Of a DNA stretch of 64,000 nt, positions 24,526 to 35,098 are shown one piece after another. Position 1 is the stretch's first letter, and every line of letters begins with the position of its first letter. The notes beneath the pieces are model-generated. The model was not told the origin of the DNA and searched no databases. It saw nothing but the letters and a program-made list of their open reading frames with translations. The DNA comes from Actinomycetes bacterium (GTDB lineage Bacteria > Actinomycetota > Acidimicrobiia > Acidimicrobiales > Palsa-688), in the NCBI GenBank assembly GCA_021828475.1, contig JAJZIY010000005.1, forward strand, positions 1-64,000, given 5' to 3'. The translations under genes and the position numbers were made by a program.

Positions 24526-25442
24526 GGCGCCCCCACGCCGGCAGGCTGCGCCACACCGGCTCCGGTCCTACCAGCAGCAACGATGTCATCCCGCAGCGCG
24601 CTCAGCGCAGCCAGGGCCGCGTCCTTCATGTCGCGCCCGCAAGGGCGCACGTCGAACTTCGCCCGTTCGAACAGGCCGGCCAGCTCGCGGGCGACAGCAG
24701 CGTGCGCGCCGAGGCCGACGAGCACGCGGTCCAGGTGCTCGAAGGGGGCCTCCCAGCGCTCGCGCCCCCACCCCGTCCCGGCCAGCCAGCTGTCCATACG
24801 CCCGTAGGCAGCGATGACGGCCCGGCGCGGGTCGGGTTCGCCCGCCAGCGCGTCGAGGGACAGGTCGAGCGCGGCGACGACCTGTTCGCGCTCGGGGCCG
24901 GACATGGCGGGCACAGTGCGGCCGGGAAGCCCCCTGGCCGGCTGGTACCCGTGTCGGCGCCGCCGGGTGACGCGGGCCGCCAACAGGGCGAGCAGGGCAG
25001 TGACGGCCCCGATGGCGAGCGCCGGCCAGCCGGGGCCGCCGCGGTCCGCTCCGGTGGCTGCAAGCCTGGCCGGCGCGGTGGGGACGCCGGGCAGCACACG
25101 AAGTGACGGGTGCTGGCGCTTGTCCAGCAGGAGCAGGGCCACGACCAGGCCCACAACGACCAGGCCGGCGACCACCAGCACGAGCACGGACCACCACCTG
25201 CGCTCCGACAGCACCGCCCGGCCGCCGACAGGCTGCGCGTCCAGCAGGCCGGCGACAAGGGTGTAGAGCCAGAGGACCACCCCGGCGGCCACCGCCCCGG
25301 CGATCAGGTCCGAGGCTACAGCCGGGACAGCGAAAGCACCCTCGCCCGCCGGCACCGACCTCCCGGCCCCGGCGGCCGCGGCCACGCCGGCGAGCAGGAC
25401 CGCTGCGCCGACCATGCTGCCGGTTGCCCGCACCCTGCCCAT
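24522..25442 (-). CDS. DUF4129 domain membrane protein
   Basis: 306 residues. Three or four hydrophobic segments (one is VLVLVVAGLVVVGLVVALLL) precede a cytosolic DUF4129-like region from about residue 185, with AVIAAYGRMDSWL, RWEAPFEHLDR and ARELAGLFERAKFD. DUF4129 proteins commonly accompany MoxR and DUF58. ATG 25442 is probable; GTG codons upstream in frame are possible. This is the first gene of the array running to 15271 and is divergent from serC. Confidence 0.85.
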   Translation of the reverse strand: MGRVRATGSMVGAAVLLAGVAAAAGAGRSVPAGEGAFAVPAVASDLIAGAVAAGVVLWLYTLVAGLLDAQPVGGRAVLSERRWWSVLVLVVAGLVVVGLVVALLLLDKRQHPSLRVLPGVPTAPARLAATGADRGGPGWPALAIGAVTALLALLAARVTRRRRHGYQPARGLPGRTVPAMSGPEREQVVAALDLSLDALAGEPDPRRAVIAAYGRMDSWLAGTGWGRERWEAPFEHLDRVLVGLGAHAAVARELAGLFERAKFDVRPCGRDMKDAALAALSALRDDIVAAGRTGAGVAQPAGVGAP

Positions 25443-25518
25443 GAGCCCATGTTCCCAGACCCCGCCGCGCGGCGTCCGGCACCCGAGCACCCCGCCTGTC
25501 CGACCACGCCTGCCAGGG

Positions 25519-25547
25519 TTCACGGTGACCGGCCGCCGGCGTATACG
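25519..25547 (+). promoter_or_regulatory. Candidate serC promoter
   Basis: TTCACG (25519-25524), a 17-base spacer and TATACG (25542-25547), about 38 bases before ATG 25585. Confidence 0.45.
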
Positions 25548-25584
25548 CAGGAGCACCGGGCCGCCTGCTGGCAGACTGGCAGCC

Positions 25585-26718
25585 ATGCCTGACACCGCAC
25601 CGGACATCACCATCCCACGGGACCTGCTCCCTGCCGACGGCCGCTTCGGCAGCGGCCCCTCCAAGGTGCGCCGCTCCGCTGTGGAGGCCCTCGCCGGGCC
25701 GGGCGGGGCCATTATCGGCACGAGCCACAGGCACGAGCCCGTGAGGTCCGTGGTCGGGCGCCTGCGAGCCGGGCTGTCGGAGCTGTTCCACCTGCCGGAC
25801 GGCTACGAGGTCGTGCTGGGCAACGGCGGCACGACCGCCTTCTGGGACATCGCCACGTTCTGCCTGGTGGAGAGGCACAGCCAGCACCTGCGTTTCGGAG
25901 AGTTCTCCTCGAAGTTCGCGGCTGCCGTCCAAGCCGCTCCCTGGCTCGACGCTCCCGACGTCGTCGAGAGCCCGACCGGGACCCACCCCCAGGCCGAGGC
26001 CAGGCCCGGGACGGACCTGTACGCCCTGACCCACAACGAGACCTCGACGGGGGTGATGATGGAGGTCCGCCGGCCGGAGGGTGCGGACGCCGACGCGCTT
26101 GTCGCAGTCGACGCGACCTCGGCTGCTGCCGGGCTACGAGTCGACCCTGCCGCCTTCGACGTCTACTACTTCGCCCCACAGAAGAGCCTGGCCTCGGACG
26201 GCGGGCTCTGGGTCGCCCTCATGTCACCGGCCGCCCTGGCCCGGGTGGACAAGCTCAAGGCTTCGGGCCGCTTCGTGCCTGCCTTCCTCGACCTCTCCAG
26301 CGCCGTCGACAACAGCCGGCTCGACCAGACCTACAACACCCCGGCCCTGGTCACCCTGCTCCTGGCCGTCGACCAGCTCGAGTGGGCGCTGTCCAACGGC
26401 GGCATGGGCTTCACCTGCGGCCGCTGCGACCGCTCCGCCGAGATCATCTACGGCTGGGCGGAGCAGGCGCCCTATGCGAGCCCCTTCGTGGCCAAGCCCG
26501 ACGAGCGCTCGCACACCGTCGCCACCATCGACTTCGCCGACGAGGTCGACGCTGCCACCGTGGCCAAGGTCCTACGGGCCAACGGGGTCGTCGACACCGA
26601 GCCGTACCGCAGGCTCGGGCGCAACCAGCTGAGGGTGGCCATGTACCCTGCGATAGAGCCGGAGGACATCCGGGCGCTGACCGCCAGCATCGACTACGTC
26701 GTCAGCGCGCTGTCCTGA
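25585..26718 (+). CDS. serC: Phosphoserine aminotransferase, actinobacterial type
   Basis: PLP enzyme making phosphoserine from phosphohydroxypyruvate in serine synthesis. 377 residues. The PLP lysine is K200 in YYFAPQKSLASDGG, and GNGGTTAFWD near residue 76 forms the cofactor phosphate site. The protein starts PDTAPDITIPRDLLPADGRFGSGPSKVR, as in mycobacterial SerC. ATG 25585 has no strong Shine-Dalgarno. Convergent with alr. Confidence 0.95.
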   Translation: MPDTAPDITIPRDLLPADGRFGSGPSKVRRSAVEALAGPGGAIIGTSHRHEPVRSVVGRLRAGLSELFHLPDGYEVVLGNGGTTAFWDIATFCLVERHSQHLRFGEFSSKFAAAVQAAPWLDAPDVVESPTGTHPQAEARPGTDLYALTHNETSTGVMMEVRRPEGADADALVAVDATSAAAGLRVDPAAFDVYYFAPQKSLASDGGLWVALMSPAALARVDKLKASGRFVPAFLDLSSAVDNSRLDQTYNTPALVTLLLAVDQLEWALSNGGMGFTCGRCDRSAEIIYGWAEQAPYASPFVAKPDERSHTVATIDFADEVDAATVAKVLRANGVVDTEPYRRLGRNQLRVAMYPAIEPEDIRALTASIDYVVSALS

Positions 26719-26802: not shown

Positions 26803-28014
26803 TCAGACGTAGATCCGTGGTAGGCGCGGCGACAGGCCGCAGGTGACCTCGTAGGCGATGGTCCCCAGCCGGCTGGCCCACTCCCAGGCCGTCACCTCCT
26901 CGCTTCCCTGTCGACCGATCAGTACGACCTCGTCGCCGGTACGCACACCCGCACCCGGCCCGCAGTCGACCATGATCTGGTCCATCGTGACCGTCCCCGC
27001 TATGGGGCAGCGCCGCCCGCCCACCAGCACCTCGCCGCCCGCCTCGTACAGCCGTCGCGGCACGCCGTCGGCGTAACCGAGCGGCACGGTGGCGACGACC
27101 GAACGGTGCGCAAGTTCGTAGCGCAGCCCGTAGGAGACACGCTCGCCCGCTTCGACCTCCTTGGCGAAGGAGACCTGGGCCTTGAGCGAGAGCACGGGTT
27201 GCAGCGCTGCGACGGCGGGATGGGCCCTGACCAGCGGGCCCGGCGAGATGCCGTACATGGCTATGCCGGGTCTCACCATGGCGTAGCGAGCCTCGGGGTG
27301 GCACAGCGCTCCGGCGGAATTGGCAGCGTGGAGCAGGTGCGGTTTGGTCCCCTCGGCCTCCAGCCCGGCCAGAGCGGCATCGAAGCGGCGCAGCTGCTCG
27401 CCCGTGTAAGCGTTGCCCGGTTCGTCGGCCACGGCCAGGTGCGTGAAGGCACCCTCGAGGACAAGCTCCGGCTGCCCCGCCACAGCCGCGGCCAGCTCGG
27501 CGAACGTGCTCTCGTCTGCACCCACACGGTGCATGCCGCTGTCCAGCTTGAGGTGCACCGGTACGGGCGCGCAACCGGCACCGCTGTCACGGCGCTCTGC
27601 ACGGGCCGCGTCTAGCAGCGCCGAAAGGCCCCCGGCTGTGTAGACGGCCGCCGTCAGGTGGTCCTCGACCACCATCCGCATCGCCTCGGGCGGTGGCTCC
27701 GAAAGTACGAGCACCGGTACGTCCAGGCCTGCCTGGCGCAGCTCGTGGCCTTCCTCGGCCAGGGCCACACCCAGGTAGGAAGCCCCACCCTCGATGGCAG
27801 CGCACGCCACCTGGACGGCTCCGTGGCCGTAGCCGTCCGCCTTGACGATGGCGCAGACGCGCGCCGGGGCGACGGTCCGGGCGATGTGGGCGACGTTGGC
27901 GGTGACGCGGGCCAGGTCCACCTCCAACCAGGCCGGCCTCAGCCACCCCGCCACCCTCTTCGCGCTCGTCAGGTAACCGTCGGGACGGTCGGCACGGGGC
28001 ATCGCCGCCGTCAT
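26803..28014 (-). CDS. alr: Alanine racemase
   Basis: PLP enzyme supplying D-alanine for peptidoglycan. 403 residues. K58 in AIVKADGYGHG binds PLP; the second catalytic base is the Tyr in LGYADGVPRR; the C-terminal domain carries TVTMDQIMVD. ATG 28014 overlaps the nnr stop as ATGA. Last gene of the rplM-alr array. Confidence 0.96.
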   Translation of the reverse strand: MTAAMPRADRPDGYLTSAKRVAGWLRPAWLEVDLARVTANVAHIARTVAPARVCAIVKADGYGHGAVQVACAAIEGGASYLGVALAEEGHELRQAGLDVPVLVLSEPPPEAMRMVVEDHLTAAVYTAGGLSALLDAARAERRDSGAGCAPVPVHLKLDSGMHRVGADESTFAELAAAVAGQPELVLEGAFTHLAVADEPGNAYTGEQLRRFDAALAGLEAEGTKPHLLHAANSAGALCHPEARYAMVRPGIAMYGISPGPLVRAHPAVAALQPVLSLKAQVSFAKEVEAGERVSYGLRYELAHRSVVATVPLGYADGVPRRLYEAGGEVLVGGRRCPIAGTVTMDQIMVDCGPGAGVRTGDEVVLIGRQGSEEVTAWEWASRLGTIAYEVTCGLSPRLPRIYV

Positions 28015-29414
28015 GCCCGCAACCCCGACAACCAGGCAGCGACCAGCTCGGGGAGATCCCCGGCCGTCAGCCCTTCGGCGAAACCTGAACGCGCCGCCCG
28101 TCCGTGCACGTGAGCGGCCAGGGCGGCCGCCTCGAACGGCTCGACGCCCCTGGCCAGGAAGGCTCCGACAATTCCCGAGAGCACATCACCCGTGCCCGCC
28201 GTCGCCAAGCGTGCGCTGCCGGTCGCTGCCAGCAGGGCGCGCCCATCCGGGGCGGCGACGACGGTGGTCGAGCCCTTGAAGAGCACCACCGCACCGCTGC
28301 GGGCCGCTGCCTCCCTGGTCACGGCCACCCTGTCCGGACCTGGCGGGCGCCCAAGCAACCTGGCCAGCTCGCCGGCGTGTGGTGTGACAATGGTCGGTTG
28401 GCGACGACGGGCCACCACCGCGGCCAGGCCGTCGATACCGCCCATGGCGTTGAGGCCGTCGGCGTCGAGCACCGCAGGGACGTCGGCCGATGCCAGCAGC
28501 AGGCCAACCTCGCCTCCCGGCAATCCACCAGAGCTCCCGGCTCCACCGGTCACAGGGCCCAGGCCCGGGCCGACCACGAGGGCCTTCACCCGGGACATCT
28601 GCGCCAGCAGGGGGACGTGCCAGCCCGTCTCCGGCACCGGGAGGTACACGAGCTCGCTCGGGGGGAGCACGCTGGGGCTGACGCCCGGCATGGAGAGCCG
28701 GACATAACCCGCCCCGGCCCTCATCGCCGACCGGCTGACCAGCCACGGTGCCCCTGTCATACCGGGCGAGCCGGCCACCACCTGCACGGCGCTCTGCCAC
28801 TTGTGCGCCTCGCGTGGCCTCGGGCGAAGGTGCCGGGCCACGTCGCCGTCCTCTACGAGCCAGCAGGAGGCCACCCGGACGACCTCGGCTCCGAGGCCGA
28901 TGTCGGCCACCGTCAGCTCCCCTGCCAGCTCCGGACCGCTGCCGAGCAGCAGACCGGGCTTGAGCGAGGCGAAGGTGACTGTCGCGGCCGCTGCCAGGGC
29001 CCCCCCGCCATCGGGCACCTCACCCGTCAGGCCGTCCAGCCCCGACGGGATGTCGACCGCCAGGACGGGTGAGGAGCTCCGGGGCGGCTGGTAGGGCCGG
29101 CGCAACCCGGTGCCGTAGGCGGCATCGATCAACAGGTCGGCCTTCGGGAGCTGCTCGGACGCCAGGAGATCCCTGGCGTCGCGGACGTCGACGATCGCAC
29201 CCCTGCCGGCCAGGATCCCGGCTGCCACACGCCCGTCGGCGCCGTTGTTACCCGGGCCGGCCACCACCACCACCCGCCTGGCGTACGCTCCGCCCATCAC
29301 CCTGACGGCACCCGCCGCCACCGCCGCACCGGCACGTGCCACCAGGTCGGAGACAGCCTGCTCGGTGCTACGGTCGACACCGGCCGTCTCCTCCGGCGTA
29401 AGTACGGGTATCAC
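28011..29414 (-). CDS. nnr: Bifunctional NAD(P)H-hydrate epimerase / ADP-dependent dehydratase
   Basis: Repairs hydrated NAD(P)H. 467 residues: N-terminal epimerase (about 1-200) with AGPGNNGADGRVAA and DIPSGLDGLTG; C-terminal ribokinase-like dehydratase (about 210-465) with VVGPGLG, PTIVTPHAGELARLLG, FKGSTTVV and ATAGTGDVLSGIVGA. The N-terminus is short of helices compared with the usual epimerase but keeps the key loop. Overlaps acpS and alr by ATGA. Confidence 0.95.
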   Translation of the reverse strand: MIPVLTPEETAGVDRSTEQAVSDLVARAGAAVAAGAVRVMGGAYARRVVVVAGPGNNGADGRVAAGILAGRGAIVDVRDARDLLASEQLPKADLLIDAAYGTGLRRPYQPPRSSSPVLAVDIPSGLDGLTGEVPDGGGALAAAATVTFASLKPGLLLGSGPELAGELTVADIGLGAEVVRVASCWLVEDGDVARHLRPRPREAHKWQSAVQVVAGSPGMTGAPWLVSRSAMRAGAGYVRLSMPGVSPSVLPPSELVYLPVPETGWHVPLLAQMSRVKALVVGPGLGPVTGGAGSSGGLPGGEVGLLLASADVPAVLDADGLNAMGGIDGLAAVVARRRQPTIVTPHAGELARLLGRPPGPDRVAVTREAAARSGAVVLFKGSTTVVAAPDGRALLAATGSARLATAGTGDVLSGIVGAFLARGVEPFEAAALAAHVHGRAARSGFAEGLTAGDLPELVAAWLSGLRA

Positions 29415-29797
29415 GAAAGGGCCAACACCACGGCGGCGGCGGCGGTTGCAGTATGCGTCAGCGAGACGAGCCAGGAGCCGACGGCCCGCTCGGCCGCCAG
29501 GCGCACGGCCGCCCCGGACAGGACCAGCTCGGGTTGCCCAGAAGGGAGGCGGCGGACCTCCACCTCGTGGAAGGCGAACGCACCCAGGCCGACACCCATG
29601 GCCTTCATCACCGCCTCCTTGGCGGCGAAGCGAGCCGCCAGGGAGGGCACAGGGTCAGCCAGGGAGCCGGCGTACTCCCGCTCCCCCGGCGTGAACACGC
29701 GCTCGCTCATCGACGGCCGTCTCTGCAGCACCTGCCTGAACCGCTCCATGTCGACCAGGTCGACACCCATCCCGAGCGGGGCCCCGGCGAACGGCAC
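29411..29797 (-). CDS. acpS: Holo-[acyl-carrier-protein] synthase
   Basis: Transfers phosphopantetheine from CoA to acyl carrier protein. 128 residues with MGVDLVDMERF (Mg-binding Asp) and FAAKEAVMKAMG. GTG 29797 follows GAGGG; ATG 29770 at MGVDLVD would be the minimal start. It lies one base past the stop of the GlmS-like gene. Confidence 0.95.
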   Translation of the reverse strand: MPFAGAPLGMGVDLVDMERFRQVLQRRPSMSERVFTPGEREYAGSLADPVPSLAARFAAKEAVMKAMGVGLGAFAFHEVEVRRLPSGQPELVLSGAAVRLAAERAVGSWLVSLTHTATAAAAVVLALS

Positions 29798-29798
29798 C

Positions 29799-32700
29799 TC
29801 AGCCCTCCTGCGCCGACCAGTTGCCGGCCAGCACTGCTACGGGCTCGGTGAGCAGGTCGATCACGGGCACCATGGCCAACACGTCGTCGTCGAAGCCGGG
29901 CCGGGCCTCGGTGACCGCGTCGACCAGGGCCGCGTAGCGCCCCTGGTACCCCTCGAGGACGGCACGCGCCTGCACCGGGGACAGCCGGTCCTCGAACTGC
30001 ACGTGCAGCAGGGTCATGCCGACCACCTGCCCGTCTTTGACCTCTGGCACCATCACTCCGGTCCGGCCGTCGTGGAGACCCCGGAACACGGTTACCTCCC
30101 TCTTTTCGGCCGCCCTGTGCTTGGTGCCCCTGAGCGTGGGATCGGCGGCCGAGCGCGAGACCATGCCTGCGGATATCCCGCCCCGGTCCACCACGCTGAT
30201 CGTGGCCCCTGCGAGCCGGTCCGCCTGCGGCGCGGAGGCAGGGGCGAGCTCCACGTGGTAGCGGGTGAACCCGAGCACCCCGTGCACTGCAGGCGCCAGG
30301 GCGGCCAAAGAGCGCAGCGCCCTGTAGCCGAGAGAACCGGCCGATGCTCCCGCGCCGAGCGCCTCCGCCACCAGCTGCGAGCGCAGGAGGTCGTCCTCGC
30401 TGCGCGATATCCCGACTGTGACGGTCTTGGCCTGGTGCTTGATGGCGTCGATAGGCCTGGCCAACTCGTCGATGGCGGCCCCCAGTGCGGCAAGCAGGTC
30501 CTCGGCCAGCGCTGAGGGCGACCCGACCTTGCCCATTTCGGCCTCGTAACCCTCCACCGGCAGGGCGCCGGTCGCATAGCGCAGCAGCGACGTCAGCCTT
30601 CCGGCGCTGGAGGCGCTGAGGTTGCCGTCGTAGGCACCGGAGCGCAGGCCGGACACGGCGGGAGCGGTCACAGCCTCGAGGGCCGGCACGACAGCGGCCG
30701 GCAGCCCGGAGCGCTCGATGAGCGACCGGGCCTCCCGTAGGGGATGGGCCTGGGCGTCGATGGACAGCGCCGCCTCGTACCCGAAGATGTGGCCGACCAT
30801 CGCAGCGAGCACGAAGGCCAGCTCGGGATGGGTGTCGGGCACGGCAACGACATCCACGTCGTCTCCGAAGAGCGCTCTCTGGCTCTCGCTCACGACGACC
30901 ACCGGTGCCGCTTTGTGAGCCTTGAAGATGGCCACCTCTTTGGCCAGGTCGCGGGCATTGGCCCCGCTCGTGCCCGCAGCGCACACGATGACCATCGGCT
31001 CCGAGGACAGGTCGATGTGCTTCTTGTCCTCGACCGTGTCGAGGGCTATCGACTTGTAGCACAGCTCGGAGAGCTTGATCCGCAGCTCAGCCGCGGCGAC
31101 GTGGTCCGGGCCGCTGCCGGTCACGGCCCAGTTGCGCCGAGGTGGGGCCACGGCTGCGGCGATCATGGCGATCTCGGTGCGTTTGGCCAGGACCGTGGCC
31201 ATGTGGTCGGGGAGGTCACGCAGTGCGGCCAGCACGTCCTGGCGGTCCCGGCCGAGCCCAGGCCCACAGCAGGCGGTCATGCCGGCTGCGAGTAGGTGGC
31301 CGGCGGCGATCTGGGAGTAGAAGGCCTTGGTCGAGGCCACCGACATCTCCACGTCGCGCCCGTCCGAGGTGTAGAGCACGCCGTCCGACTTGTGCACCAG
31401 GTCGCTGTTGCGGCGGTTGACGATCGAGACGACGAGCGCGCCCCGGGCGCGCACCAGGTCGACGGTGCGGTTGGTGTCCGTCGTGGTCCCGGACTGGCTT
31501 ATCGCCACGACGAGCATGCCGGTGAGGTCGTCAGGCAACCCGGTACCGTCGGGCCCCCATCCGGACAGCTCGGTGGCCGGCATCCGGGCGACGCGCACGC
31601 AGGGCATTGCCCGCGCCAGGGCGGCGGCCACTGCCTGGCCGGCCACCGCCGCCGTACCCTGGCCGACGACGACAGCCCGGTCTATGGAACCATCCGCCAG
31701 GCGCCTCCGCAGGGTGGCAGGCAGCGCCTCGTCACCGAGGCGCACCTCGTAACCACCTCCCGGGCCCGGCACCAACTTGCCCCGGAGCGTCTTGCGCACC
31801 GACAGGGCCGCCTCGGAAATCTCCTTGAGCAGGAAGTGACGGAACCCGTGGCGGTCTATGTCCCTGGTGGTGATCTCCGCCCGCTTGACCTCGGACATGG
31901 CAATGGGCAGCGGCGAACCGTCGTAGCGCTGCCTGCGGGCACCGTCCATCTCACCCGCCCGGCCCCGCTCGAGCACCACCACCTGCCCGCCACCCTCGCC
32001 GTCCATGCGCAGGTACTCCGACGCCTCCTCGACGAGCCCGTAGGGTTCACTGGCCACCACGAAGGCGTCGGCGGCCAGGCCGATGTTGAGGCCCTGGCCG
32101 CTGCCGCGCAGGGCCAGCAGGAGCCGGCCGGGCTCGCGGGCCATGTTGACGGCGATGCCGACCGAGCCGTCGAACCTGCCGACTGCCTGCCTGAACGCGT
32201 CCTCAGGCGCCACACCGCAGGCCATCCGCCTGGCCACCAGGGTGGGCACCAGCTTGGCGTCGGTCGTCACCTGGGCCGGCGGCGCGATCTCCTCTTCCGC
32301 CAGCAGAGCCGCGTAGTTGTCGATATCGCCGTTGAGGGCACCGACGGCGTAGGCCGTCCCGTCGGGGCCGAGCACCAGCCCGCCCTCTTCGGAGTTGAGC
32401 GGGTGGGCGTTCGGCTCCGAGATCAGGCCCACGCTGGCCCAGCGGGTGTGGGCCACGACGGTCGCCTCGACGTCCGGCGAGGCGAGTGCGAGGGCGAGCA
32501 AGCTGTCCGAGGCCACGGCTCTGCGCAGCGCCCGCACGTTGTCGCCCAGTTCGCCGATCTCAGCCGCCGTCTTGTAGACGATCGACAGGCAGCCGGCAGG
32601 CCAGCGCACGCTCATCGACGTGAACAGGCGGTCGCCGGAGCGTCCGCCAGCCAGGGCGGCCACCTCGGGTGCTCCGGGGTCGAGCCCGTGGCCCGAGAGC

Positions 32701-33260
32701 ATCAGGTGCAGCCCGGCCGAGTCCCGGCCCCGCACCTCCAGGCGGTCCAGCGAGCGCAGGGCGACGTGGAGCGACCAGGCCACCCCCAGAGCGGGCCGCG
32801 GCGGCACGGCAGCGAGACCGAGCCCGTGACAGAGCTCGCGGGTGCTGCGGAGCGCGCCCAAGCGGTCCTGCGCCAGCGCCCAGACCGAGTCGCGCAGGGC
32901 GACGATCGCCGCGTTGAGATCCTCGACGCCCCCGGCCGTGTCGGCCAGCCCACTGCGGTCGAGTGCGGACTCGTAGGACTGGAGGTGCGACGTCACGGCC
33001 GCCGTCGACCCTTCGAGCAGGGGCTCGATGCCAGGGCCCCCGAGCATGGCCTCCAGTCCGGGCACGCCTCTGAGCGCGCTGTCGAGAGCCCGCAGGGCAG
33101 CCGTCGCTGCGCGCAGGCCGGCGGCATCACCCGGCGCAGGCGGGCCCGCCCACACAGGCTCCAGCGCTGCGCCCGCCTCTTCGAGCAGCCGGCGCACCTC
33201 CTCCAGGGAGGGCGCGGCCCGTCGGGAGGGCCTGGCCAGCACGGCCGCTATCCCACACAT
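29799..33260 (-). CDS. Giant GlmS-like glutamine:fructose-6-phosphate amidotransferase with two extra domains
   Basis: 1153 residues against about 610 for GlmS. The N-terminal nucleophile is kept (MCGIAAVL), but an insertion of about 150 helical residues separates it from the rest of the glutaminase domain: LEVRGRDSAGL (174-184), HTRWASVG (271-278) and ALNGDIDNY (309-316). FRHFLLKEI (near 473) introduces the isomerase half. SIS 1 has GQGTAAVAG, SQSGTTTDTN and VASTKAFYSQ; SIS 2 has LRIKLSELCYKS and DKKHIDLSSEP. The usual GlmS C-terminal tail is recognisable as HPLREARSLIE near 839-849. About 300 further residues of unrecognised sequence follow. glmM is immediately upstream, so glucosamine-6-phosphate supply for the wall is the likely role; whether it replaces canonical GlmS is unknown. 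ATG 33260 gives Cys2. Confidence 0.9.
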   Translation of the reverse strand: MCGIAAVLARPSRRAAPSLEEVRRLLEEAGAALEPVWAGPPAPGDAAGLRAATAALRALDSALRGVPGLEAMLGGPGIEPLLEGSTAAVTSHLQSYESALDRSGLADTAGGVEDLNAAIVALRDSVWALAQDRLGALRSTRELCHGLGLAAVPPRPALGVAWSLHVALRSLDRLEVRGRDSAGLHLMLSGHGLDPGAPEVAALAGGRSGDRLFTSMSVRWPAGCLSIVYKTAAEIGELGDNVRALRRAVASDSLLALALASPDVEATVVAHTRWASVGLISEPNAHPLNSEEGGLVLGPDGTAYAVGALNGDIDNYAALLAEEEIAPPAQVTTDAKLVPTLVARRMACGVAPEDAFRQAVGRFDGSVGIAVNMAREPGRLLLALRGSGQGLNIGLAADAFVVASEPYGLVEEASEYLRMDGEGGGQVVVLERGRAGEMDGARRQRYDGSPLPIAMSEVKRAEITTRDIDRHGFRHFLLKEISEAALSVRKTLRGKLVPGPGGGYEVRLGDEALPATLRRRLADGSIDRAVVVGQGTAAVAGQAVAAALARAMPCVRVARMPATELSGWGPDGTGLPDDLTGMLVVAISQSGTTTDTNRTVDLVRARGALVVSIVNRRNSDLVHKSDGVLYTSDGRDVEMSVASTKAFYSQIAAGHLLAAGMTACCGPGLGRDRQDVLAALRDLPDHMATVLAKRTEIAMIAAAVAPPRRNWAVTGSGPDHVAAAELRIKLSELCYKSIALDTVEDKKHIDLSSEPMVIVCAAGTSGANARDLAKEVAIFKAHKAAPVVVVSESQRALFGDDVDVVAVPDTHPELAFVLAAMVGHIFGYEAALSIDAQAHPLREARSLIERSGLPAAVVPALEAVTAPAVSGLRSGAYDGNLSASSAGRLTSLLRYATGALPVEGYEAEMGKVGSPSALAEDLLAALGAAIDELARPIDAIKHQAKTVTVGISRSEDDLLRSQLVAEALGAGASAGSLGYRALRSLAALAPAVHGVLGFTRYHVELAPASAPQADRLAGATISVVDRGGISAGMVSRSAADPTLRGTKHRAAEKREVTVFRGLHDGRTGVMVPEVKDGQVVGMTLLHVQFEDRLSPVQARAVLEGYQGRYAALVDAVTEARPGFDDDVLAMVPVIDLLTEPVAVLAGNWSAQEG

Positions 33261-33285: not shown

Positions 33286-34773
33286 TCAGGCCCGGCCGAC
33301 TGACGGGCCCGGCTCGGCTTCCCCGAGCGCCCGGTGCAGAGCCCCGACCAGGCGCCCGGCACAGTCCTGGGCCTGTTGCTCGCTGCGGGCCTCGACCATG
33401 ACCCGCACGAGGGGCTCGGTGCCGCTTGGCCGGAGCACGACGCGGCCCTCGCGCCCGAGGCTGGCCTCGACCCGGGAGACCTCCGCCCACACCTCGTCAG
33501 CGCCGGCCAGGGCCTCGCGCCGCGCCACCCGGACGTTGGTGAGCACCTGGGGGTACTTGTCCATCACGCTCCCCGCCAGCTCGTGCAGAGGTGCACCGAG
33601 GCGGCGCACCAGGTCGGCCAACAGCAGGCCGGAGAGGACGCCGTCCCCCGTCGTGGCCAGCGCCCGGAAGACGATGTGGCCGCTCTGCTCGCCGCCCAGG
33701 CTCCAGCCGTTGGCGTCGAGGGCTTCGAGCACGTAACGGTCACCCACGGCGACCGTGTGCACCCTGACCCCGGCCGGTTCCATCGCCCGGTGGAAGCCGA
33801 GGTTGGTCATGACGGTGACGACGACCGTGCCGCCTCCGAGCAGGCCCTGCTGGTGCATGTCCCGCGCCAGCAGCGCCAGGATGCGGTCGCCGTCCACGAC
33901 CTGGCCGTCCTGGGCCACCGCTATGACCCGATCGGCGTCGCCGTCGAAGGCGAGGCCGATGTCCGCCCCGTGAGCCAGCACGGCGCCGGCCAGCGCGTCC
34001 GGGTGGGTCGACCCACACTCGTGGTTGATATTGGTGCCGTCTGGTTCGGCGCCGAGCACCGACACCACCTCGGCGCCCGCAGCGCGCAGTACGTCGGGAG
34101 CACTGGCGTAGGCGGCACCGTTCGCGCAGTCGAGGACCACCCTCATCCCGGACAGGTCCCGACCCTCGAGGCAGCTCACGACGTGCTTCTCGTAGCGGGC
34201 CAGGGCCCCCTCGTCGCGTTCGAGGCGCCCGAGCGAGGCGCCCTTGCGCATCGCCGCTCCGGCGCTACCGGCCTGTATGGTCTCGAGCTCGGCCTCGATC
34301 CTTCGCTCGGTGGCGTCGGCCAGCTTCAGCCCGCCGGGGAGGAAGAACTTGATGCCGTTGTCGTGATAGGGGTTGTGCGACGCGGATATCACGGCCGCGG
34401 GAGCGTCCTGCTCGGCGGAGACGAACGCTACCGCCGGGGTGGCCAGGGTCCCCAGGTCGACCACGTCAGCGCCCTCGGAGGCAAGGCCGGCCGAGAGCGC
34501 CGCCTGCAGCAAGGGCCCGGACAGCCGCGTGTCGCGCCCGACGAGGAAGCGCCGGCGCGGCGCGGCACTGCCGGGTGGGAGGACACGGGCTGCGGCCCTC
34601 CCCAGTGCCAGAGCCAGCTCGGGCGTCAGCTCGTCGTTGGCGGAACCTCGTATGCCGTCGGTCCCGAACCGTGGTGCGCGGTGCGCCGTAGGACCCGCCG
34701 CCGCGTCAGCGCTTGGAGTACTGGGGCGCCTTACGGGCCTTTTTGAGGCCGTACTTCTTCTGCTCCTTCTCAC
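33286..34773 (-). CDS. glmM: Phosphoglucosamine mutase, start overlapping rpsI
   Basis: Converts glucosamine-6-phosphate to glucosamine-1-phosphate for UDP-GlcNAc. The phosphoserine loop is [12 protein letters not shown] (Ser near 132), the Mg site DGDADR and the sugar loop GGEQSGH; the C-terminal phosphate site is [11 protein letters not shown]. Homologues start about five residues before FGTDGIRG, but no ATG, GTG or TTG exists there. The nearest legal codon is GTG 34773, 68 bases inside rpsI, which would add about 35 basic residues. The product is certain, the start is not. It is 25 bases upstream of the GlmS-like gene. Confidence 0.93.
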
Positions 34774-35098
34774 GGGGGTCGCGGGTCAGGAAGCCGGCCC
34801 TCTTGAGCGGCACCCGCAACTCCGGCTCGAGCTCGGCGAGCGCCCTGGCGATGCCCAGGCGCAGGGCGCCGGCCTGGCCCGAGATGCCGCCGCCGTCCAG
34901 AGTGGCGTCCACGTCGTAGTCCGTCGCCTTGTCGACCACACGCAGGGGCTCGGTGAGCACCATCCGGTGGGTGGCCGAGGGGAAGTAGTCCTCCACGGGC
35001 CGCCGGTTGACGGTGATGGCACCATCGCCGGGACGCAGGCGGACGCGCGCTATGGCGGCCTTGCGCCTACCTGTCGACTGGACTAGCGGTTTGGGCAC
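34706..35098 (-). CDS. rpsI: 30S ribosomal protein S9
   Basis: 130 residues, full length, with [33 protein letters not shown] and the basic tail ending in KAPQYSKR that reaches the P-site tRNA. Second gene of the usual rplM-rpsI pair; its 3' end is probably overlapped by the glmM start. Confidence 0.98.

Follow-up and report, generated by a model that had tools for sequence, protein, structure and literature searches.

The long glmS gene and its domains

The window analysed here is the whole stretch of 64,000 nucleotides at the beginning of contig JAJZIY010000005.1, from a bacterium of the class Acidimicrobiia, and its subject is a minus-strand gene for an unusually long homologue of glucosamine-6-phosphate (GlcN6P) synthase, GlmS. 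Amino-sugar and cell-wall synthesis start with this enzyme, whose mobile C-terminal tail bears residues of both active sites. The coding frame proceeds from 33260 to 29802, with the stop at 29799-29801, and specifies 1153 residues that start with MCGIAAVL and contain no internal stop. The gene starts 25 bases beyond the glmM stop codon, and acpS adjoins its other end (Table 1). The original prediction of a GlmS-like enzyme of 1153 residues, with Cys2 and the main glutaminase motifs, was confirmed by the translation, by NCBIfam and by an alignment with Escherichia coli GlmS; its placement next to glmM, where wall synthesis begins, was borne out by the TIGR01455 match of the neighbour.

Table 1. 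Features of the long glmS gene and of the surrounding operon
Feature	Coordinates	Strand	Evidence
Long-form GlmS gene, 1153 aa + stop	29799..33260	-	ORF translation, Pfam, NCBIfam, relatives
Start codon and Cys2, glutaminase N-terminal nucleophile	33255..33260	-	invariant in alignment A1; equals E. coli Cys1
Insertion 1, residues ~10-154, helical, between first strand and first helix of glutaminase	32799..33233	-	alignment, model
Insertion 2 region, residues ~188-262	32475..32699	-	Arg26-Arg73 interval 49 longer than in E. coli
Glutaminase active-site motifs HTRWAS / NAHP / NGD / TD, residues 267-335	32256..32462	-	alignments
Isomerase (double SIS) domain, residues 469-835	30756..31856	-	Pfam, alignment, structure comparison
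Insertion 3, residues 836-932, helical, between isomerase domain and catalytic tail	30465..30755	-	alignment, models
Catalytic C-tail, residues 933-950, K945 = E. coli K603	30411..30464	-	alignments, tail profile, structural alignment
C-terminal domain, residues 962-1153, weakly PAS/GAF-like	29802..30377	-	structure comparison; no credible Pfam/PDB sequence match
glmM, next pathway step	33286..34773	-	TIGR01455, 6.3e-162
Ribosomal protein S9 (rpsI)	34706..35098	-	Pfam/NCBIfam
acpS	29411..29797	-	Pfam, NCBIfam
nnrD/yjeF-type NAD(P)H-hydrate dehydratase	28011..29414	-	Pfam, NCBIfam
Alanine racemase (alr)	26803..28014	-	Pfam, NCBIfam

The best NCBIfam matches of the window protein were GlmS models (GlmS subfamily, E 2e-62; TIGR01135, E 4.8e-55). 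Pfam recognised SIS (2e-16) and, below threshold, GATase_6, and E. coli GlmS and human GFAT-1 ranked first in a search of PDB sequences. A search for relatives yielded 375 candidates, from which 80 loci were kept; two of them (L019, L023) were excluded because they were cut or contained runs of N, and eight of the 78 examined were omitted as truncated or misplaced. In the remaining 70 loci, complete chromosomes among them, the long architecture recurs with an intact N-terminus. Such recurrence, together with the SIS and GlmS subfamily matches, indicates that this architecture is not due to chance. It also rules out an artefact of assembly or annotation, in which two genes would have been fused or a neighbour frame-shifted, a scenario that we credit with virtually no probability.

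The positions of the additional residues were determined by aligning (MAFFT) 15 long forms, chosen from the 55 in a larger alignment (A1), with the E. coli enzyme and 12 canonical GlmS from the class. Relative to E. coli GlmS, the long form is longer by 150 residues between Cys1 and Arg26, by 49 between Arg26 and Arg73 and by 98 between Glu488 and Lys603, and carries 208 residues beyond Lys603 in place of 5. The first of these insertions is alpha-helical in the AlphaFold2 model, in agreement with the glutaminase domain split by about 150 helical residues after MCGIAAVL that had been described from the sequence; the second had escaped that description. The roughly 300 unrecognised residues said to follow the usual end of GlmS do represent extra length, but they include the catalytic tail itself (933-950), and in place of one extension there are two modules, of about 98 residues before the tail and about 203 after it.

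According to the review PMC9272926, the catalytic residues of GlmS are Cys1, Glu488, His504 and Lys603. In the window protein, E488, H504 and K603 of E. coli correspond to E732, H748 and K945. When other residues that we take to belong to the E. coli active site are added, the equivalents of C1, R26, R73, W74, H86, N98, G99 and D123 in the glutaminase domain and of Q348, S349, T352, K485, E488, H504 and K603 in the isomerase domain are identical in all 15 long forms.

The full-length AlphaFold2 model, built from an alignment of 55 sequences, has a mean predicted local distance difference test score (pLDDT) of 89.5 and a predicted template modelling score (pTM) of 0.80, being weakest at residues 276-279, beside the HTRWAS loop, and at 942-953. 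Human GFAT-1 and E. coli GlmS were among its best Foldseek matches (2j6h, template modelling score 0.79 normalised by its 608 residues), and VIA returned Z 42-44 over about 600 residues for full-length E. coli GlmS and GFAT-1 (42.3 over 595 residues). Both methods thus recover the overall glutaminase plus double-SIS fold of GlmS and GFAT.

The catalytic tail as an internal loop

In canonical GlmS and GFAT, the mobile tail bearing K603 is the free C-terminus, and canonical enzymes of the class finish with a tail such as LDVDKPRNLAKTVTVE. The long form does not end in the pattern DVDxPRNLAK[ST]VTVE that marks such a free tail; the homologous stretch, PIDAIKHQAKTVTVG, lies internally at residues 933-950 and is followed by a further 203. 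Its typical long-form version at 935-950 reads RP[IV]DA[IV][KR]HQAKTVTVG, with H942 to G950 invariant in the 55 sequences of A1. Position 945 is a lysine in each of these sequences, as it is in every one of the 56 long forms aligned over the core columns for the tree below.

Several comparisons arrive at the same register. When a profile built from the 12 canonical tails was moved along the alignment of long forms, it scored highest at 933-950 (z 6.5; runner-up 3.8). After shuffling of the tail columns, with the E. coli tail included, 29 of 20000 shuffles reached the observed score, and the reversed tail scored 10.2 versus 26.2. Whole-protein MAFFT placed the E. coli tail at 933-950 unaided, with K945 on K603. 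In the structural alignment, model residue 950 coincides with residue 608 of 1moq and 681 of 6svm, 948 with 606 of 1mos, and 946 with 604 of both 2j6h and 1jxa; the rows of 6r4g, 6svq, 2vf4 and 3ooj are off by one at the tail, and some rows stop short of it. Judging from the alignments and the model, the C-terminal extension contains the GlmS catalytic tail, turned into an internal loop between two added modules.

A separate family in a shared operon slot

Both forms share the gene order rpsI-glmM-[glmS]-acpS-nnrD-alr. Where glmM was found in the surrounding sequence, it lay within about 320 bases upstream on the same strand, measured between open-frame ends, at 18 of 19 long loci among L002-L023, at six of eight other long loci (L100-L107; 723 and 2481 bases in the remaining two) and, among the canonical loci L088-L099, at 10 of 11. 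Of the 12 canonical loci, 11 had one or more of acpS, nnrD and alr nearby (at L092, acpS is on the opposite strand), and nnrD was present near all eight loci L100-L107. Since the neighbouring gene order agrees around either form, the long and the canonical enzyme occupy one and the same slot.

Regarding phylogeny, a quick tree of 598 core columns and 75 rows (19 canonical, 56 long), made without bootstrap and giving no direction of change, split the canonical from the long enzymes with an SH-aLRT of 100. Mean core identity was 48% within the canonical form, 55% within the long form and 27.8% between the two. Long forms from Actinomycetota clustered with the other long forms, away from the canonical enzymes of their own class. 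Such a topology tells us that the long GlmS is, at the level of core sequence, a deeply separate family and no oddity of one genome.

The long form and canonical GlmS (TIGR01135; 2j6h, 1jxa, 1moq) have in common the order of glutaminase, double SIS and C-tail, the catalytic residues, the fold and the place in the operon. Unlike the canonical enzyme, the long form is larger by about 500 residues, which nearly doubles the protein, keeps its tail internal, diverges in core sequence as described above and misses the curated cut-offs. Its residues and its fold mark it as a GlmS homologue, one that lacks two family-defining features, namely a free C-terminal tail and an equivalog score.

A third, giant GlmS-like architecture came to light in genomes that also hold the long form: L125 (G102:C496) and L127 (G125:C13), of 1882 and 1511 residues, begin with an MCGIV glutaminase start and continue through a double SIS and a PRNRAKSVT[VA] tail into several hundred further residues. 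L126 (G107:C222) was seen as a frame of 1130 residues matching the isomerase part.

Distribution of the two forms

The 80 kept loci belong to Acidimicrobiia, many Desulfobacterota, Actinocrinis, Actinophytocola and one Planctomycetota bin. For the class counts, a genome was scored as canonical when it had a GlmS over the cut-off and as long when it matched the C-terminal extension of the long form. Among 100 genomes of the class Acidimicrobiia, 55 had the canonical form, 41 the long form, none both and four neither. The 30 families in this sample were divided equally into 15 canonical-only and 15 long-only, with none mixed, and the window's own order holds families of both kinds. Within the organism's own genome, which is 93.5% complete, a search for a canonical glmS elsewhere gave six TIGR01135 matches, none of them over the cut-off.

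Outside the class, no canonical GlmS over the cut-off was found in any of 28 long-form genomes, chosen from 58 loci (L024-L081); Desulfosarcina alkanivorans, D. widdelii and Desulfonema magnum, each with a complete chromosome, are among these genomes. Of 198 genomes from Desulfobacterota, the phylum of D. alkanivorans (G117), 155 were canonical, 25 long, one both and 19 neither, so that 24 of the 25 long-form genomes lacked canonical GlmS. Of 396 genomes of the window's phylum, searched for the long form alone, 31 had it. Overall, related genomes use either the long or the canonical GlmS, almost never both. In the single genome with both (G310; L109, L110), the canonical gene is near serS and an M20 hydrolase, and the long gene is beside a nucleotide-sugar epimerase/dehydratase.

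The original prediction had counted it as a refutation if the long form turned out to be common and already characterised, and half of this holds. Common it is, given the class counts; on the other point, no description or characterisation was found, as judged mostly from titles, in the open-licence literature, which makes the absence weak evidence, and the main text of PMC5962788 mentions neither GlmS nor glucosamine.

Identity of the enzyme

Taken together, residue conservation, the fold match, the exclusivity of the two forms, the synteny and the deep split between them lead us to conclude that the window protein is very probably the organism's sole GlcN6P synthase, taking over the function of canonical GlmS at the usual glmS locus. 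Cys2 would hydrolyse glutamine, the ammonia would move to the double-SIS isomerase domain, and E732, H748 and K945 would carry out the ketose-aldose isomerisation on the route from fructose-6-phosphate to GlcN6P, as residue conservation and fold suggest.

A number of observations weigh against this conclusion. The window protein misses all curated GlmS cut-offs (211 bits versus 381; 187 versus 418 for TIGR01135). The equivalent of S347, Ser in 11 of the 15 long forms including the window protein, is Thr in the other four; T76 is replaced by Ser, H77 by Val (13 of 15), C300 by Gln (14 of 15) and S303 by Ala, which is also found in three of 13 canonical rows, and HID replaces the HGP stretch at H504. 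Confidence in the model is lowest at the tail, and with pLDDT below 50 at 942-953, the model alone does not reliably place K945 in the active site. Four class genomes (G054, G057, G077 and G093, the last with a canonical fragment) and 19 of the 198 Desulfobacterota genomes show neither form over threshold, G310 carries both, and many of the sampled genomes are incomplete metagenome bins. Finally, the 100 class genomes are not independent events, because families are uniform and inheritance at the family level explains most rows.

Differences of this kind among the active-site neighbours might indicate that the long form has shifted to another reaction (acting on another amino sugar phosphate, or being regulatory or inactive), GlcN6P being made, for instance, by a NagB-II-like protein running in reverse with free ammonia. 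The organism's own genome does contain a NagB-II-like, isomerase-only SIS protein (L083, G000:C16:15628-16644; 1.2e-49, under the cut-off). Nevertheless, the exclusivity with canonical GlmS, the identical place in the operon and the conservation of all catalytic residues render such a shift improbable, and the sole match of L083 in each of the five other long-form genomes tested was the long GlmS itself. As no counterpart exists in those five genomes, L083 was rejected as a common source of GlcN6P. NagB-II and GlmD-type deaminases resemble the long form in the isomerase domain with its SIS pair; they have neither a glutaminase domain nor extra modules, unlike the window protein, whose glutaminase domain retains the catalytic Cys.

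Some remarks on the surrounding genes and pathway should be added. The real start of glmM probably lies about 35 codons inside its open frame. No riboswitch or ribozyme, that of glmS included, matched Rfam at the gathering threshold between 28000 and 36500. Downstream of alr, positions 24586-26034 (minus strand) contain an open frame of 482 residues with no Pfam or NCBIfam match, which may be no gene at all. A glmU match in the same genome (353.9 bits against a cut-off of 366.85, positions 2-339 of 452) was read as GlmU, possibly incomplete.

The added modules and their possible role

Residues 836-1153, modelled alone (pLDDT 89.6, pTM 0.64), matched nothing significantly in Foldseek (best E 0.014). 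In VIA, the best match was 7jsr, the glutamate dehydrogenase L-GDH180 (Z 9.1, 164 residues aligned, root-mean-square deviation 4.5 A). The part of this model from residue 1 to about 110, on the side of insertion 3, resembled FAT helical bundles, and residues of about 127-255 resembled GAF (5w10, 3ci6, 3mmh) and other sensor domains, in both cases at Z ~7, although a Z below 8 may reflect merely a common arrangement. For 21 members, Pfam searches up to E 10 brought up no PAS or GAF family, and the C-terminal domain matched no PDB sequence up to the same limit. We therefore call this domain PAS/GAF-like only tentatively, from its predicted structure; scores this low make the resemblance a weak one, which speaks against a sensor. 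Across phyla, S1035, R1036, K1047 and D1064 are invariant in A1, a pattern of polar residues which suggests, and would suit, a putative binding site. Two frames elsewhere touch on the same domain: L125 is faintly similar to it (E 0.0012), and a short frame of 154 residues at G126:C41:28433-28618, about 7 kb from a Desulfatibacillum long GlmS, matches its end (E 2e-8).

Two known enzymes are instructive here. GFAT-1 (6r4f, 6svm and others), among the best structural matches of the long form, is, according to PMC8041777, the same enzyme in a regulated form, subject to feedback by UDP-N-acetylglucosamine. It ends in a free C-tail (670-681) with no domain beyond, and its regulation acts at the isomerase domain and the interdomain linker. 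L-GDH180, whose fold is the nearest to the C-terminal domain, likewise works on ammonia and glutamate, and PMC8175468 describes it as enlarged by modules for which a role as metabolic sensors has been proposed. Its catalytic core is unrelated, its ACT/PAS segment is N-terminal, identity is 13%, and the matched stretch (175-361) comes from a 6.27 A crystal structure with the N-terminal part modelled ab initio.

Since the added modules flank the mobile tail and the glutaminase domain carries an insertion, control of tail closure suggests itself. The tail forms an internal loop between the helical bundle (836-932) and the tentatively PAS/GAF-like C-terminal domain; among the roles open to the added parts, the likeliest is control of activity by holding or releasing the tail and by touching the glutaminase insertion, triggered by a metabolite that the C-terminal domain would bind. 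For this regulatory step, that is, sensing and gating by the added modules, we would put the chances just short of even. An ordinary GlcN6P synthase whose modules build or stabilise the oligomer, or shield the ammonia channel, without sensing any ligand, is likewise quite possible, although we do not lean towards it. The helical insertion before the tail does resemble generic bundles, and the added segments of L-GDH180 form intersubunit contacts, as described in PMC8175468; yet the four residues invariant across phyla point to a conserved site, sensor domains are among the nearest folds, and it is precisely the mobile catalytic tail that the modules enclose. The data may fit ligand sensing and a purely structural role alike.

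A further peculiarity concerns the N-terminus. At 42 of the 70 long-form loci with intact N-terminus (L031, L051, L077 and 39 others), no start codon stands directly before the catalytic Cys; upstream of xCG there are about 45-50 conserved in-frame residues ending in IYxGRxPxxV...FPxxxxxL, with a [FLV][FLV]P motif at 41 of the 42 loci. The window protein has no such stretch. Because the Cys follows a conserved in-frame stretch in place of a start codon, a propeptide that needs to be removed is implied, and propeptide removal is known from PurF and glutamate synthase.

Keeping the control of tail closure in mind, it is tempting to suppose that these enzymes represent a bacterial GlmS clade with a sensor-controlled internal gate. 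The C-terminal domain would bind a pathway or nitrogen metabolite and would lock or free K945 via the helical bundle and the glutaminase insertion; the form would have swapped places with canonical GlmS in the operon, and many members from Desulfobacterota would be precursors with a cleaved propeptide. This scenario, taken as a whole, is a tentative one that might well prove wrong.

Implications

The class sample shows cleanly how one form of an enzyme can take the place of another in central metabolism: both occupy the same slot, and no genome combines them. Because the curated models miss the long form, metabolic reconstructions may show a false glmS gap in genomes that carry it (41 of 100 in the class, 25 of 198 in Desulfobacterota). 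A tail naturally tethered between two modules would allow the coupling between glutaminase and isomerase to be tested directly. If the sensing scenario is true, an intrinsic sensor domain would control the entry step of wall-precursor synthesis in bacteria.

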